In this document: positions 14,297-46,159 of the stretch, piece by piece
Layout of the letters: each line of letters opens with the position of its first letter
How positions within the stretch are numbered: position 1 is the stretch's first letter
Assembly (NCBI RefSeq): GCF_030065545.1
Contig: NZ_JASJNC010000005.1
Coordinates: 124,001 to 188,000, forward strand
Reading direction: 5' to 3'
Origin: Marinicella marina
GTDB lineage: Bacteria > Pseudomonadota > Gammaproteobacteria > Xanthomonadales > Marinicellaceae
Length of the DNA stretch: 64,000 bases
Program-made: the position numbers and the translations under genes
Notes under the pieces: generated by a model
What the model was told of the DNA's origin: nothing
The model's database searches: none
What the model saw: the letters and a program-made list of their open reading frames with translations, nothing else

Positions 14297-16174
14297 ATGT
14301 CATACAAATTAATTCTTAAATACTTGGTGCTGCTACTTGCCAGTGTCCAAGTTCATGCAGGCAGTCAAATTGATTTCACGCCACATGGCACACAACCAGG
14401 TCTTAACTTTTCATTAGAACCCTCTTCGAACTGTCAAGGATGCCACAAAGGAGGCAATGTAGCAGATGACAGTATTAATATGCCTAACAGAACATGGATG
14501 GGGTCAATGAAAGCCCATGCTACCCGCGACCCGTTATTTTGGGCTGCACTAGATGTAGCCAATAATGACCTTCCTGGTGTGGGTGATTTTTGCCTGCGGT
14601 GCCATACTCCAGATGGTTGGTTCAGAGGCAATGTTAAGCCAACTAAAGCCAGCCAATCCTTTATAGATGGGCCTAATGGATGTGAATTAACAGGTAACTA
14701 TATACTGCCTGAAAGTAAGCTGAATGATTATGGTGGAGTAAGTTGTCATTATTGTCACAGAATTGAGCCGATAGGCCCCGGTGGTGAAGCCGGTTTTTTA
14801 CAAAATGGTGACAATTGGATTGATGATGTGGCTTGTGAATCAGGCGGATTCGGTCCTTGCAGAAACGGACCATACAACGAACAGGATTATATGGATGGTG
14901 GCTCAACTCCACCCCATGCATGGGAAGGGTCCAATCATATTCAGTCTTCTGAATTTTGCGGGTCGTGTCATGATATTTCTTCCCCTGAAATTTTACAAAA
15001 TGGAATGTTGAGTATTGCCAGAAAATTTTGGAACGATGGTGTCGAAACAGACTTGCCTATGCCTATTGAGAGAACTTACAGTGAATGGAAGAACTCTTTA
15101 TTTGCTGATCTCATTTACAGAGACAGTATGGAAGTTGGGTTATCAGATGAGTTTCCTCTATTATTGGAAGGAGAAACTTGTCAAAGTTGTCACATGCCAC
15201 AATCAGAGAGTGAGGCTGCAAGGGCTTGTATTTTTGATGCTTTAGATGTTGATGGGAATGGTCGCAGGAAAGGTAATCTGCGCACACATCAGTTTGCTGG
15301 TGCCAATACTTGGATTCCTCAAGTTATTAAAACAATATACGGCGATCAACTTGAATCAATCAATGAAGGTATAAAAGAGTCGCTGGATTTATCCACCGAC
15401 TATGCCTTAAATAAGCTTCAAAATGAAAGTGCATTGATTGAAGCTACACTCACCAATCAAACCTCAGATGAGCTAAATATCAATGTTAAAGTAACTAACC
15501 TATCGGGTCATAAATTACCCACCAGTTATGCAGAAGGTCGCAGGATGTGGCTGCATATTGTGGCAAAAGATGGTGCCAATAATGCTTTTTGGGAAAGCGG
15601 TGCGTATGATGAAAACACTGGTATTTTAACAGAAGATACACAGTTGAAAGTTTATGAAGCTCTACAAGGTATTTGGAATCCTGACCCTGATGGAAATTCA
15701 AGCACAGAAGATGGTAATTGTGAAGTAAGTGATGAAAATGGAGACAAGATGTTTCATTTTGTCTTGAATAATTGTGTAGCTAAAGATAACAGGATTCCAC
15801 CATTAGGGTTTAGAGCTGCTGATAACATTGAGATGAAGCCAGTGGGGATTATATACACTCCTCGACCAGGCCACCCAGGCCAAGTGGTGAATTTTGATGT
15901 AACCAATTATCAAATTCCGGTCACCGGTGTTACTGGACCGTTCGTAATTGAAGCAACCTTAAAGTATCAAACTGCGAGCAAGGATTATATTGACTTTTTA
16001 GCGCGTGAGGCAACCGTCAATAATTTTGCAACAGAGAATGAGATGTGTGACAGAGATTGGGATATTGGTCCTGCCAATCAAAGTAGGGGGGCATTTATGA
16101 AGGAATTATGGGAAGAAAATGGACGTTCCGCTCCGGTTGATATGGTGATGGATTTTTTACAGGTGAATGAATGA
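14297..16174 (+). CDS. Secreted pentaheme c-type cytochrome
   Basis: A 625-residue protein with a signal peptide (cleavage near VHAG, residue 21) and five CXXCH haem sites at about residues 46-50, 99-103, 150-154, 221-225 and 295-299. After the last site (CQSCHMPQ) comes HQFAGAN, whose histidine is a likely distal haem ligand. The C-terminal 230 residues lack haem sites and form a beta-rich domain with SGHKLPTSYAEGRRMW, a segment I associate with large secreted multihaem cytochromes. It probably works as a periplasmic or surface electron carrier or oxidoreductase. It has too few haems for octahaem hydroxylamine-oxidoreductase-type enzymes. It overlaps the next gene by ATGA and heads a three-gene operon. 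Confidence 0.82.
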   Translation: MSYKLILKYLVLLLASVQVHAGSQIDFTPHGTQPGLNFSLEPSSNCQGCHKGGNVADDSINMPNRTWMGSMKAHATRDPLFWAALDVANNDLPGVGDFCLRCHTPDGWFRGNVKPTKASQSFIDGPNGCELTGNYILPESKLNDYGGVSCHYCHRIEPIGPGGEAGFLQNGDNWIDDVACESGGFGPCRNGPYNEQDYMDGGSTPPHAWEGSNHIQSSEFCGSCHDISSPEILQNGMLSIARKFWNDGVETDLPMPIERTYSEWKNSLFADLIYRDSMEVGLSDEFPLLLEGETCQSCHMPQSESEAARACIFDALDVDGNGRRKGNLRTHQFAGANTWIPQVIKTIYGDQLESINEGIKESLDLSTDYALNKLQNESALIEATLTNQTSDELNINVKVTNLSGHKLPTSYAEGRRMWLHIVAKDGANNAFWESGAYDENTGILTEDTQLKVYEALQGIWNPDPDGNSSTEDGNCEVSDENGDKMFHFVLNNCVAKDNRIPPLGFRAADNIEMKPVGIIYTPRPGHPGQVVNFDVTNYQIPVTGVTGPFVIEATLKYQTASKDYIDFLAREATVNNFATENEMCDRDWDIGPANQSRGAFMKELWEENGRSAPVDMVMDFLQVNE

Positions 16175-16797
16175 AGTATATATACATTCTATTGTTAACG
16201 TCTTTAACTTTTAATCCAGCACTCGCATTGGAAATATTGCCTTTTTACGAATCCGATTTGCCACCTTGGGCGATTGCGATAAAAAAAAATGAATCAGGCG
16301 AGTTTCTTGAGGTAACGACAAATCAATGGCATGACAAGGTGATGACTGATGAGGGGGAAAAAAGGTTCATCTATCGACAAGGTCATGATTATATTAAAAG
16401 ACAGGGTTTCTTGCGGACATACACTCACGACGAACAACTGGTCAATGAAGTGTATGATGTTGAAAATGACGCCAGTGTTATCAGAGAAGAAATATTCATT
16501 GCATTCGAGTTGTTTAAGATGCATCCAGAAATCAGGAAATTATTGATTGATGAAGGCCAGCCCATTATTTTGAACGGTGGTTTTAATTATCTGGATAAAG
16601 AGCCAACACAGCCTTGCTATTTTGGGAATAGATGCGTCCATGTGATGGCATCATCTGCAAACACAGCTATGGTTGCGCATGCAGTGGTAAGGTTATCTGA
16701 TAAAAGCATACCTTATCCACATTTTGATACTGATAAGGCTACTGAACAGGGCATTAAAAACAGAATAAAAAAAGTTTTAAAGCGGAAAATACAATGA
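16171..16797 (+). CDS. Secreted protein of unknown function
   Basis: A 208-residue protein with a clear signal peptide (ILLLTSLTFNPALA-LEIL). I do not recognise a family. The mature part has two cysteines (PCYFGNRC, possibly a disulphide) and a basic C-terminus (KNRIKKVLKRKIQ). It is sandwiched by ATGA overlaps between the pentaheme cytochrome and the CuAO-like protein, so the three products are likely made in fixed ratio and may form a complex or pathway in the periplasm. Function unknown. Confidence 0.6.
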   Translation: MKYIYILLLTSLTFNPALALEILPFYESDLPPWAIAIKKNESGEFLEVTTNQWHDKVMTDEGEKRFIYRQGHDYIKRQGFLRTYTHDEQLVNEVYDVENDASVIREEIFIAFELFKMHPEIRKLLIDEGQPIILNGGFNYLDKEPTQPCYFGNRCVHVMASSANTAMVAHAVVRLSDKSIPYPHFDTDKATEQGIKNRIKKVLKRKIQ

Positions 16798-18287
16798 AAA
16801 CAATAATACATAATGCAGTGGTTGCATTTTTCATGCTGTCCTACACGTTTTTTGTTCAAGCTGGATCTCCTAACTGTGATGGTTTTGGCGAAAATTATGT
16901 AGGCTGGCCTACACTGGAGCCTGTGTGGGAAATGTGCTATTTATCACCAGAAAACAGTTCAGCATCAAGGGGGTCGAGTTTAGAAGTCAGGAACGTGCAT
17001 TTGAATGGATTTTTGGTCTTGGAACGAGCACATATACCTATGTTGTTTGCTAATTATAGTAGTGGCACTTGCTACCGAGATTGGAAAGATACTTCGTCCA
17101 ATTTTTTACGAGCTGATGCCATTGAAAATCCTACAAGGCCTGCAATCACAACATGCGATATTTCAGTGGATGAAGATCTTCCTGTCGGTAACTGTCCTTT
17201 TCAGGATGTCAGTCCTGGGGGCAGCGGCACGGTAGGAAATGCAAATGACTGTACTTCTCAGGTACAAGTTGAGAAATACGATGACCGAATGGTGATAACA
17301 ACTAATCATTCTGCTGATTGGTATAAATACTCTGCAAGATATGTTTTTCATGAAGATGGTCGTATAGAACCTAGGTTTGGTTTTGGCAACAGCGATGGTA
17401 CATTCAGTGGCACAACCCATTGGCACCATGCTTATTGGCGATTTAACTTTGATATTGAAGGTGGTGATAATGACCTGGTATACATTGTTGATCAAAATGG
17501 AGAAAATTTACAAACCACTGAGTTTACAGATTTAAGGGAAATTACCAGTGGAAAAGCCAATGATCCTAATACCTTTGATGATGAAGTTACATGGTTGGTT
17601 AAGGACAGTGTTAGTGGTCGTGGATATCGAATGGTACCTGGTTTTGACGGTGATTCCCAGTTGGGTTTTATCGATGATTACAGCGTTCCTGCTGATCCCA
17701 GCCTGGATAATTACCACGAAGTAGACGTGATGGTTTCACGATACAAGCTGATCAACGGTAGCTTAACAGAATACTCAGATACACCAGGTCAGAATAGTTT
17801 GGGTAACTGTTCTATGGATGAAACAAGAATAGTCGATAATGAGACACTGGTCAATGAAGACCCTGTGTTGTGGTACCGCGCAGCTGTGAATGACATTGCT
17901 AATCAAGGTATGTTATGTAAAACAGCAGGTCCTACATTGTATCCAGTGGGTGACTGGGGTATTGATCAAGCACCGGTTGCGGTCGCAGATGCCGCTCAAG
18001 TTGAGGAAAACAGCGTTGATAACGTACTTGACCTGTTGTCCAATGACACTGACACGGATGGTGGAGAACAGTTCATTGCATCAGTGACTCAGCCAGTAAA
18101 TGGAGCGGTGGTCATTGGTGTTGATGGTGCCGATGTCAGTTACACTCCAGACGTTGATTACTGTAATGATGGCAGCCCAACTGATGATTTCAATTATACT
18201 TTGAACGGTGGTTCATCAGCCACAGCCGCGGTTACCGTAACTTGTTTCATCGATTTGGATTTAATTTTTGAGGATGGTTTCGAATAA
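16794..18287 (+). CDS. Secreted protein, remote copper-amine-oxidase-like, Ig-like C-terminus and GFE tail
   Basis: A 497-residue protein with a signal peptide (cleavage at VQA-GSPN). The middle part has a weak resemblance to the catalytic beta-sandwich of copper amine oxidases: RYVFHEDGRIEPRFGFG followed by a histidine-rich strand THWHHAYWRFNFDI, comparable to the HQHFF copper motif. However, the N-Y-D/E topaquinone site is not visible, so enzymatic amine oxidation is doubtful. Residues about 390-480 form a cadherin/Ig-like bacterial repeat (NSVDNVLDLLSNDTDTDGG). The protein ends LIFEDGFE, a tail also seen in the glycine-rich protein at 43970-46159. It is the third gene of the pentaheme operon and is followed by a strong terminator. 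Confidence 0.55.
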   Translation: MKTIIHNAVVAFFMLSYTFFVQAGSPNCDGFGENYVGWPTLEPVWEMCYLSPENSSASRGSSLEVRNVHLNGFLVLERAHIPMLFANYSSGTCYRDWKDTSSNFLRADAIENPTRPAITTCDISVDEDLPVGNCPFQDVSPGGSGTVGNANDCTSQVQVEKYDDRMVITTNHSADWYKYSARYVFHEDGRIEPRFGFGNSDGTFSGTTHWHHAYWRFNFDIEGGDNDLVYIVDQNGENLQTTEFTDLREITSGKANDPNTFDDEVTWLVKDSVSGRGYRMVPGFDGDSQLGFIDDYSVPADPSLDNYHEVDVMVSRYKLINGSLTEYSDTPGQNSLGNCSMDETRIVDNETLVNEDPVLWYRAAVNDIANQGMLCKTAGPTLYPVGDWGIDQAPVAVADAAQVEENSVDNVLDLLSNDTDTDGGEQFIASVTQPVNGAVVIGVDGADVSYTPDVDYCNDGSPTDDFNYTLNGGSSATAAVTVTCFIDLDLIFEDGFE

Positions 18288-20414: not shown

Positions 20415-21707
20415 TTAAGACTCTAAATAAATGGTTTCTTTATCACGCATGATTTCAACTTCAAATGATTCGCCAGACTTGAATGATGACATGATTCTGA
20501 CCACATCCTTTGGTGAGTTGACGTCCTCACCATTGATGGCTTGAATCACATCGCCGTCTTTGAGCCCCAGTTTATTGTCAGCATCAACCTCGAGCACCAA
20601 AACGCCTTTATCGGTGCCAAAATATTTGCCCAAGTTTTCAGTGATGGTTGAAAAATGGTGATTTTTCCCCAGCCATTGATTCATTTTGCTGCCGGAGAAA
20701 AAGTAGGCATCGGCATCGGCTGTGGTTACCACGTGTATTTCGCGATTTCCTAAACCTTCAATCAGTTTATCCAAATGCTCAACGTCCACATTCAAGCCTG
20801 CAAATAGGCCATCCATGTCACCGGAACTGAAAGTGAATTCTTGGCCGGAAGAGGACAGCCAATTTTTATTGCCATTTAAGGTCATGAGTACATCGGGCGA
20901 GTCAATCACTCGAGCGGTGATGCCCAAAACCAATTCATTGCCATTGCGCAAGACTTGCACATCGCTGACCGCGCCTTCTTGGTGGTCATTGGCGATGAAT
21001 TCAGTTAAACCCAAACCGTCTTTGGCGGTACTCTGGCCATCGATGGCAGTGATCAGGTCGCCTGACAACAAGCCCGCTTCATCAGCACCGCTGCCGGGCA
21101 CCACAGAGACCACTTCCCAGCCACTGTCCTTGACGTTGGCCATAAAACCCAATCGTGGTTTGTTGCTATCAACCTGGGTGAATTTTCGATCCAATTTAAT
21201 GACTTTGCGGTGCACCTCAGCATCGCCAGCTTCAATGCCATGAGCCCTCATTAAGTCATCAATCAACACATTGATGTCTTGTCCCGCTGTGAGATCAAAA
21301 GATTCTTCAATGACTTCTACCTCACCATTGCGGTCTTTTCTGATGATGACTTTGGCTTGCCCGTCTAATAAGTCCACGGACACATCATCATTTTTTTGCA
21401 GCCACACCATGTCTTTGTTGCCTTCATGGACCATTTTAATGATTTCTTTGTGGTGTTTTTCGCCTTGATGTTCAATGCCATGTTCTGCCAAGAGTTCATC
21501 GACCAAAGCGTCAATGTCTGCGTTTTTATCTGCCACGAATGTATCTTCAATGGTTTGGGTTTCTCCATCAACGACTCGAAGGATGGTGATTTTGCCCTCG
21601 CCATTGTCAATGTTGACATTGACATTCACTTGGTCATCGGCTGCCTCAGCAAAAGCCATTGAACATAAGCCAAACAGGCTGGTTAGTAGTGCGGTTTTAA
21701 ATTTCAT
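20415..21707 (-). CDS. Periplasmic protein with duplicated N-terminal domain and two PDZ domains
   Basis: A 430-residue protein with a signal peptide (cleavage at AFA-EAADD). Residues about 35-170 contain two copies of a 60-residue unit (RVVDGETQTIEDTFV...AEHGIE and RKDRNGEVEVIEESFD...AHGIE). Then comes a PDZ domain at about 185-275 (PRLGFMANV, GLLSGDLITAIDGQS) and a second near the C-terminus (LGLKDGDVIQAINGEDVNSP). There is no protease domain, so it is not a DegP/HtrA enzyme. It is the last gene of an ECF sigma operon, suggesting an envelope sensor, chaperone or adaptor that controls or answers to the sigma pathway; that role is inference. Confidence 0.8.
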   Translation of the reverse strand: MKFKTALLTSLFGLCSMAFAEAADDQVNVNVNIDNGEGKITILRVVDGETQTIEDTFVADKNADIDALVDELLAEHGIEHQGEKHHKEIIKMVHEGNKDMVWLQKNDDVSVDLLDGQAKVIIRKDRNGEVEVIEESFDLTAGQDINVLIDDLMRAHGIEAGDAEVHRKVIKLDRKFTQVDSNKPRLGFMANVKDSGWEVVSVVPGSGADEAGLLSGDLITAIDGQSTAKDGLGLTEFIANDHQEGAVSDVQVLRNGNELVLGITARVIDSPDVLMTLNGNKNWLSSSGQEFTFSSGDMDGLFAGLNVDVEHLDKLIEGLGNREIHVVTTADADAYFFSGSKMNQWLGKNHHFSTITENLGKYFGTDKGVLVLEVDADNKLGLKDGDVIQAINGEDVNSPKDVVRIMSSFKSGESFEVEIMRDKETIYLES

Positions 21708-43781: not shown

Positions 43782-43969
43782 CAATCGTGGTACTCAGTTA
43801 ACGGCCTATTCTTTGAAAAAAGTCATTCTATCGTTCACTGAGCTGAACCGAAGTGCGAATGAAAATACCTAAGTAATTATTTTTTTAACCCATATTTTCA
43901 ATAATTTTGATGTTATTGTCTTTGAATTACGCTTTATAGACTACGAGTCAAATAAATGTGCAATTCACC

Positions 43970-46159
43970 ATGATTAAAGAACCAAAACATTCACTAAAAC
44001 AATTCAAAAGAAACCTATTGTGCAGCGCCATATCGATCTGCCTTCCATTAAGCATTCAAGCGGCTGATTTTCCGGTGACTGTATCGAATGATGATGGCAC
44101 TGGAAATACAGTTGGTACTTTAAGCCACGCCATCAGAGAAGCCAACGTCACACTTGGTATCGAACATAACATCATCTTACAAACTGATGTGACTGTTCAA
44201 GGTGTTATGAAGCGCTTAATCGACTCAAATGTTACCATTCAGAGTGATGGCACGCGAAGAACCATAGACGGTAACAGTCAATTCAGACCCTTGTTTGTTA
44301 AATCTGGTAATGTCACCATTCAAGGTGTAGATATCATTAACGGATATGCGAGCGGTGGTGATGGTCTAGGTGGTGGAGCGGGCATGGGCGGTAGCCTATT
44401 TGTTTACGATGGCAATGTGACACTTAATGAAACCGTCTTTTCTGGTTCAATAGCAAAAGGTGGCTTGTCCGATAACAGCCTTTCAGGCGGCGGTGGCATG
44501 TTTGGCCAAGCAGAGAATGGGGGTGGCGGTCTGTTTGCCTCCGCAGCAGGTGGTTATGGTGGAACTGGTGGATATTATAGCGGCTTTGGTCATGGCGGTG
44601 ATACTGCTGAGAACGGCCAAGGTGGTTATTTTGGTGGCGGTGGTGGTTTAGGGTTTAGTGGCGCAGCAGGCCCAGGTGGTTTTGGCGGTGGTGGTGCTTT
44701 AGGTATTGAATTAACTTTTCCAGGTCCAGTGATAACAAATACCTATGGAGCAGGTGGGTTTGGCGGGGGAAGCATTGACGACCCTGGCTACGGCGCATCA
44801 GCCAACGGTGCCGGTATGGGTGGTGCCGTGTTCATACGCAGTGGAAATATTGACATAAAAAACAGTAGCTTTGAATACAGTGAAACCACAGCATCTTCAG
44901 GAGCCAGGGGTTTAGGTGGCGGAATATTCGTCATGCACACAATGACCAACAGCAACGGCAATAACCAAGGCATGCCAGCACAACTCGCAACTGTAACAGG
45001 ATGTGGCAATGAATTTTTTGCTAATATTGCCTCAGGCGCATCTGGCGTTCCTGGTGATAACAATGATATTTTCGATGTAGGTGGCTTGGCTGAAGATTTA
45101 ACCCAGCTTTGCCCACAGGAACAAAATTTAATAGTGACTGTCGCTGAAGATGATGGCACCGGATCGACAGAGAACACCCTCAGTTGGGCCATCAAAGAAT
45201 CTAATGCCCTATCAGGTGATGACACCATCACATTGGCCACCGATGTGACTATAACTGGTGTGATGAAACGCTTGATTGACTCCAATGTAACCATCCAAAG
45301 TGATGACACCCGAAGAAGCATCAGTGGTAACGGACAATACAGACCTTTGTTCGTTAAATCAGGCACTGTATCCATTCAAGGTGTGGACATGATTAACGGC
45401 TATGCCAAAGGTGGTGATGGCTATTCCGGTGGTGCTGGCATGGGTGGTGGTTTATTTATTTATGATGGTGTCGTTACGATTGCAGACACCCATTTCAGTT
45501 ATTCCTCTGCCATCGGTGGATCAGGAGAAGTTTACTTAGGTGGCGGTGGTGGTATGTTTGGTCATGGAGATGCCGCTGGCGGTGGACTGTTTGCCTCAGC
45601 AGCTGGCTCATACAATGGAGATGGCGGATATTATGGCGCTTTTGGTCGTGGTGGTAACCTTGACGGTGGCAATGGTCAGTTTGGTGGAGGGGGTGGTGTA
45701 TCTTATATAGGTTCCGGTGGTAATGGTGGTTTTGGTGGCGGTGGTGGTGATAAAAGTGCGCTCTCCGGCGATGTGGGAAGTGGCGGTTTTGGCGGAGGCA
45801 GTGAAGATAACCCTGGTTTTGGCGCCACTGATGACGGTGCCGGCATGGGCGGCGCTGTTTTTATCAGAAGTGGTCAGGTAACCATCAAAGGTTCAAGTTT
45901 TAGCAACAATGCAGCCGATGGTGGTCAGGCAGCTGGATTTGGGGGCGCTATTTTTGTTGTACACACGACAAGTAACAGCAACTCAAATAACCAAGGTATG
46001 CCTGCTAATCTTGCAGATGTAGAGATTTGCGATGTTCAATTCAGCAACAATTTGGCCTCAACATCAGCAGGCACATCGAATAACAACAATGATTGGTTCG
46101 ATCAGGGTGGTCAAATATCTTTAACTGAATGTCCGATATTCAAAAGTGGTTTTGAGTGA
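43970..46159 (+). CDS. Secreted glycine-rich protein with tandem duplication and GFE tail
   Basis: A 729-residue protein from ATG 43970 (a GTG at 43958 is also in frame). A signal peptide (AISICLPLSIQAA) precedes two tandem copies of a roughly 350-residue unit. Each unit has a DDGTG-TL-AI-E-N segment like the start of bacterial right-handed beta-helix proteins, a 16-residue block identical in both copies (GVMKRLIDSNVTIQSD), an IQGVD-INGYA strand, and a long glycine-rich stretch full of GGGGMFG and GGFGGG runs. It ends CPIFKSGFE, like the protein at 16794-18287. It is probably a surface or extracellular structural/adhesive protein; function is unknown. Confidence 0.75.
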   Translation: MIKEPKHSLKQFKRNLLCSAISICLPLSIQAADFPVTVSNDDGTGNTVGTLSHAIREANVTLGIEHNIILQTDVTVQGVMKRLIDSNVTIQSDGTRRTIDGNSQFRPLFVKSGNVTIQGVDIINGYASGGDGLGGGAGMGGSLFVYDGNVTLNETVFSGSIAKGGLSDNSLSGGGGMFGQAENGGGGLFASAAGGYGGTGGYYSGFGHGGDTAENGQGGYFGGGGGLGFSGAAGPGGFGGGGALGIELTFPGPVITNTYGAGGFGGGSIDDPGYGASANGAGMGGAVFIRSGNIDIKNSSFEYSETTASSGARGLGGGIFVMHTMTNSNGNNQGMPAQLATVTGCGNEFFANIASGASGVPGDNNDIFDVGGLAEDLTQLCPQEQNLIVTVAEDDGTGSTENTLSWAIKESNALSGDDTITLATDVTITGVMKRLIDSNVTIQSDDTRRSISGNGQYRPLFVKSGTVSIQGVDMINGYAKGGDGYSGGAGMGGGLFIYDGVVTIADTHFSYSSAIGGSGEVYLGGGGGMFGHGDAAGGGLFASAAGSYNGDGGYYGAFGRGGNLDGGNGQFGGGGGVSYIGSGGNGGFGGGGGDKSALSGDVGSGGFGGGSEDNPGFGATDDGAGMGGAVFIRSGQVTIKGSSFSNNAADGGQAAGFGGAIFVVHTTSNSNSNNQGMPANLADVEICDVQFSNNLASTSAGTSNNNNDWFDQGGQISLTECPIFKSGFE

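Follow-up and report, generated by a model that had tools for sequence, protein, structure and literature searches.

The window analyzed here, a 64,000-nucleotide stretch of the Marinicella marina genome (contig NZ_JASJNC010000005.1, positions 124,001 to 188,000), contains two genes for exported proteins that end in copies of the same short peptide tag:

16794..18287, plus strand: tagged exported protein 1, 497 aa (ORF list and Pfam)
18258..18287, plus strand: tag copy 1, DLIFEDGFE and stop, from the sequence (genome position G000:C19:142267-142287)
43958..46159, plus strand: tagged exported protein 2, 733 aa, glycine-rich (ORF list)
46133..46159, plus strand: tag copy 2, PIFKSGFE and stop, from the sequence (genome position G000:C19:170139-170159)

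Protein 1 consists of a Sec signal peptide, a copper-amine-oxidase-like region (Cu_amine_oxid, 25.3 bits, under the Pfam cut-off of 27), a Big_9 Ig-like domain (residues 391-483 of 497, E = 1.3e-11 in Pfam), and the terminal tag. Its C-terminus, ...DLDLIFEDGFE-stop, lies immediately past Big_9, with the motif DLIFEDGFE at 18258-18284 and the stop codon at 18285-18287. Protein 2 has a Sec signal peptide, two similar glycine-rich halves, and a terminal tag (PIFKSGFE at 46133-46156, in the protein end ...TECPIFKSGFE-stop), and matches no Pfam family above the cut-off. No Pfam or NCBIfam family is shared between them. The original prediction had pointed to exactly these tails, LIFEDGFE after an Ig-like domain and PIFKSGFE on an unrelated glycine-rich protein, and both were found in place.

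Three other features of the window are noted here. Protein 1 is the last gene in an operon-like run of overlapping or touching genes (14297-18287), preceded by a 625-aa multihaem cytochrome c-like protein and a 208-aa exported protein that belongs to none of the known families. Each half of protein 2 opens with a segment of the form (D)DGTG...TLSxAIxExN. An exported protein with apparent PDZ-like repeats (20415-21707) adjoins a short membrane protein on the minus strand.

A search for FxxGFE followed by a stop in the same genome (G000; 3.46 Mb, 99.75% complete) gave 21 matches, compared with 0 for the reversed pattern. On translation, all 21 matches give protein ends of this form; the only match with a TAG stop in this genome lies outside any ORF. 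The sites differ in their codons but agree in the encoded peptide, which rules out a DNA repeat that codes for the tail and indicates that selection acts on the peptide. The tail profile from related genomes that had been suggested with the original prediction was built from 165 distinct tails. It gave a sharp nine-residue block, D-[LVI]-I-F-x-[DN]-G-F-E, and no clear conservation upstream of it. Some of the tails had been retrieved by a pattern in which several of the motif positions are preset; the tails of M. marina, retrieved without that pattern, agree.

Judged by a strict signal-peptide heuristic, 29 of the 30 tagged ORFs in this genome carry a Sec signal and the 30th carries a Tat-type (twin-arginine) signal. 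Among the other ORFs of the same stretches, 84 of 206 have a signal peptide by the heuristic, a significantly lower share than the 29/30 (p = 1.6e-9). The carriers belong to unrelated families. These include a subtilase, endonuclease I, an ExeM-like DNase, matrixin-like, DUF11, FG-GAP, and glycine-rich proteins, a sugar-dehydrogenase-like protein, a golvesin-domain amidase, and one Tat-exported DUF1501 protein. A few carriers are lipoproteins. The protease and the DNases are typical cargo of type II secretion systems (T2SSs). Weak matches of tagged families to models for M36 proteins that depend on T9SS, myxosortase, or rhombosortase were also observed, and these arise through a shared domain.

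The position of the tag within proteins is not fixed. Where the next codon is not a stop, IFxxGFE gave 12 further matches in the M. marina genome (control: 0) and was present in 42 of 42 genomes tested. Such non-terminal tags usually lie 1-28 residues before the stop. Some tags are doubled in tandem (DLIFRNGFEDEFIFANGFE...), and some lie directly behind the signal peptide (...VSA-QPIFNNGFE, ...LSA-QPIFADGFE, and ...VSA-ELIFKSGFE, with cleavage sites judged by eye). A strictly C-terminal signal is ruled out by the tags that precede the stop, by the tandem copies, and by those that open the mature protein. The expected shared tail therefore holds up as a tag common to unrelated exported proteins, but its restriction to the C-terminus does not. 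Because the tag also occurs away from the stop, a free carboxylate is not needed. In this it differs from C-terminal PDZ ligands, in which the motif ends the chain; internal or hairpin binding of the tag by a PDZ domain is possible. What all tag positions have in common is an exposed and probably flexible end.

Among 10 genomes of the same genus that are at least 97% complete, each has 10-24 matches to FxxGFE-stop. In the order as a whole (200 genomes), the tag has a patchy distribution. Most Marinicella-like genomes have 10-48 copies, several other families also have many copies, and most genomes of families f2 and f12 (probably Xanthomonadaceae and Rhodanobacteraceae) have none or about one. 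Named records with the motif belong to Marinicella, Dokdonella, Rudaea, Pseudofulvimonas, and Lysobacterales MAGs. Outside the order, IFxxGFE-stop was found in 9 of about 270 gammaproteobacterial genomes, with a maximum of one match each. The tag is confined to one order and is at chance level elsewhere, which agrees with the original remark that proteins of Xanthomonadales-like bacteria often end this way, as this order holds those bacteria. A random frequency and an occurrence on cytoplasmic proteins had been named as observations that would speak against a sorting signal. What we found was 21 matches compared with 0 for the reversed pattern, at most one per genome outside the order, and 30 of 30 tagged ORFs in M. 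marina that look exported.

Two main T2SS types exist in the order. Type A is the canonical system with gspC-D-E-F in one cluster and gspG-K elsewhere, and type B is an Xps-like cluster. Their secretins form separate clades (100/100 support), and the secretin tree broadly follows the families, which fits vertical inheritance with several co-losses. The M. marina genome has a type-A set composed of GspC-D-E-F and pseudopilins, encoded at two loci:

G000:C19:102775-108258: type-A gspC(PDZ)-D-E-F, approximately 16 kb to the left of the window
G000:C21:297.7-300.7 kb: type-A gspG-K

GspD, GspE, and GspF scored above the NCBIfam cut-offs, GspC matched Pfam T2SSC above the cut-off and has a PDZ domain, and T2SSG and T2SSK are present; gspL, gspM, and gspN were not located in this genome. 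The PDZ domain was found in the GspC of all 10 type-A systems examined, and no PDZ domain was seen in the type-B GspC-like protein.

The tag and the type-A system co-occur strongly. With tag-positive defined as at least four copies and type A scored by GspD (checked with GspG on 15 genomes), the 200 genomes include 61 with both, 40 with type A only, three with the tag only, and 96 with neither (p = 2.5e-20). The three tag-only genomes are all incomplete MAGs that have congeners with type A. When the comparison was limited to the 139 genomes with completeness of at least 95%, the corresponding numbers were 37, 23, 0, and 79. Kinship was handled by tallies at the levels of genus and family. There were 23 genera with both, 12 with type A only, 0 with the tag only, and 33 with neither, and within families that hold both states the tally was 9/2/0/33 (p = 8e-8). 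Type-A gspG was found in all type-A genomes tested, and the genomes without type A that were tested had only type-B gspG. The only tag-free genome in the family of M. marina (G019; 4.7 Mb in two contigs, rated 100% complete) has neither a secretin nor gspG.

T2SS in general was ruled out as the correlate, since type B is common in tag-free genomes and only type A fits; genomes with type B only are without the tag at the threshold of four copies. Among the approximately 270 gammaproteobacterial genomes, canonical T2SSs elsewhere in the class are not accompanied by the tag, so the reader of the tag would have to be specific to this order, or another, unseen factor is involved. A dedicated sorting gene next to the tagged genes was ruled out as well, since clustering of neighbors gave substrate families, a pair of ECF sigma factor and kinase genes, and housekeeping genes. 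Of the co-occurring processing or secretion gene that had been anticipated, the part that stands is thus a type-A T2SS that co-varies with the tag across genomes; no sorting or receptor gene recurred beside the tags.

The sigma/kinase pair (an ECF sigma factor of the Sig-70_X6 type and a Ser/Thr kinase) adjoins one tagged DUF11 family at approximately seven loci (around L165). In the M. marina genome, a comparable pair is found next to type-A gspC (L250, 2441-5909), and the protein to the left of that gspC (L250, 452-2407) ends in DLIFSDNFE, a variant outside the 21 matches.

If the tag serves type A, tag-poor genomes with type A should carry variants of it. We searched such genomes, together with controls that lack type A, with the relaxed pattern IFx[DN]-polar-FE. 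Family f9 had 4-40 matches per genome, mostly IFxDRFE followed by 1-6 residues in genus g12; family f10 had 11 (e.g., IFVDDFE), and genus g27 of family f11 had 15 (e.g., IFADQFE). Reversed controls were near 0, and no match was found in ten genomes without type A (f1, f2, f12, and genus g11 of f8). Family f7 had only two matches per genome; here IFVDEFESL occurs on a DUF1501 protein, and M. marina also has a tagged member of this family. Most type-A genomes that looked tag-poor thus carry variants near the C-terminus (IFxDRFE and IFxDDFE).

Exceptions exist in both directions. Two genomes (G082 and G127) have type A and almost no tags. Genomes of family f8 without type A have 0-7 motif matches, several of which are genuine tags and may be leftovers after the loss of type A. 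In the same family, two MAGs of different genera (G156, locus L273, and G176, locus L274) share a type-A GspD whose branch is long and outlying. Their type-A genes may be foreign, resulting from horizontal transfer or contamination. Among the DUF1501 paralogues of type-A genomes, most are without the tag; three tagged copies were found in f8 genomes without type A. If the untagged paralogues are secreted, the tag is not the sole secretion cue. One DUF1501 protein of a genome without type A (G097, L469) ends in EIILKHGME, which looks like a decayed tag, and L456, in a type-A genome, has DLIYKGGFE.

Based on these patterns, we consider the tag to be a short signal, tolerant of position, that recruits proteins to the type-A T2SS of this order, with a probability of roughly 0.55. 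The link between tag and T2SS rests on co-occurrence. In the proposed sequence of events, the tagged protein would first be exported by Sec or Tat and fold. It would then expose the tag at a flexible end, usually as its last nine residues and sometimes at the mature N-terminus, and the type-A T2SS would recruit proteins that expose the tag. Binding would be by the T2SS itself, and the likely readers are the PDZ domain of GspC, the periplasmic part (N-domains) of GspD, or both. Precedents for such readers exist. Secretion of VesB in Vibrio depends on the EpsC PDZ domain (PMC12369372), and an exposed nine-residue loop of PelI (loop 3) is recognized by GspC and GspD in Dickeya (PMC7949064). The tag resembles the VesB Ig-fold and PelI loop 3 in the proposed recognition by GspC PDZ/GspD, and PelI loop 3 also in being exposed and nine residues long. 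However, the VesB and PelI determinants each belong to a folded domain of one particular protein, whereas the tag is one linear motif on dozens of unrelated proteins.

The main rival explanation, which we regard as unlikely, is surface retention. Type A would export these proteins by other cues, and the tag would then bind a lineage-specific surface receptor or matrix. The same co-occurrence with type A would be expected, and this scenario also explains why other canonical T2SSs manage without the tag and why a few type-A genomes lack it. A model is available in the GlyGly-CTERM/rhombosortase system of Vibrio and Shewanella. Its C-terminal signal, like the tag, occurs in a many-to-one manner on diverse exported proteins, carriers such as VesB are T2SS cargo (PMC12369372), and once exported by the T2SS the carriers stay on the cell surface. 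Moreover, several tagged families have relatives with surface-anchoring tags elsewhere, namely the ExeM-type DNases and those with the weak matches to M36 models. However, GlyGly-CTERM combines a motif with a transmembrane helix and is served by a rhomboid protease, whereas the tag has no helix, also occurs N-terminally, and has no enzyme implicated. Some tagged proteins are already lipoproteins, for which a transport signal fits better than an anchor, and no receptor or sorting gene recurs beside the tags, although a receptor need not be linked. The original prediction of a sorting or attachment signal is favored in its first half, given the many-to-one tag and the link to type A. Attachment is not favored, given the lipoprotein carriers and a machine that is a secretion system and not a sortase. 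Where no described machinery could be named before, there is now a correlated candidate in the type-A T2SS.

A purely structural role, in which a beta-hairpin or terminal strand caps, dimerizes, or stabilizes periplasmic proteins (e.g., for a periplasmic chaperone) with no part in trafficking, appears improbable. The [DN]-G between two hydrophobic stretches would suit a beta-turn, and some unrelated secreted proteins (L351 and L338) have a tag-like IFxDxFE...W or IFxDxFES...W near what is possibly the start of a beta-sandwich domain. Against this, the tag occurs on unrelated folds and at either end, and is absent from Xanthomonadaceae with type B only, which export proteins too.

Other lineage-specific C-terminal signals with tens of copies per genome, as the tag has, are MYXO-CTERM/myxosortase and PEP-CTERM/exosortase. 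PEP-CTERM is tripartite, with a transmembrane helix, and has a dedicated membrane protease. The same architecture and a dedicated membrane protease are described for MYXO-CTERM (PMC11980579). The tag does not have this tripartite architecture, as GFE is followed by the stop or by just a few more residues, with no hydrophobic helix and no basic end, and no curated CTERM model was found among the NCBIfam matches for the 12 tagged proteins scanned. The C-terminal domains of type IX secretion are likewise secretion/sorting signals on diverse exported proteins. They are folded domains of Bacteroidota that use the Por machinery, and are not comparable with the tag in size or lineage. The sharp nine-residue border and the many-to-one pattern resemble those of sorting tags, but it is very improbable that the motif serves as the cleavage or ligation site of some sortase- or protease-like enzyme, given the lack of a membrane helix or basic end, the occurrence at both ends and in tandem, which does not suit one cleavage geometry, and the absence of a recurrent neighboring enzyme.

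It has long been an open question how T2SSs select their cargo. A linear universal signal was reported to be lacking in 2025 (PMC12369372), and neither the motif nor a linear T2SS signal was found in the literature that we searched. We class the tag as a sorting tag, and it would represent a new kind only if direct recognition by the T2SS holds. In that stronger form, to which we give slightly less than even odds, it would be the first linear, transferable, and family-independent T2SS recruitment signal, effective at either end, with the GspC PDZ domain and/or GspD as its reader throughout the order. The presence of one tag on dozens of unrelated proteins, in species that are harmless and in culture, makes recognition by the T2SS testable with one graft and one deletion. 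If true, the tag would be the short send-out signal that T2SSs have been thought to lack, sequence would suffice to predict T2SS cargo in the whole order, and exported orphan proteins would gain an annotation by the hundreds.
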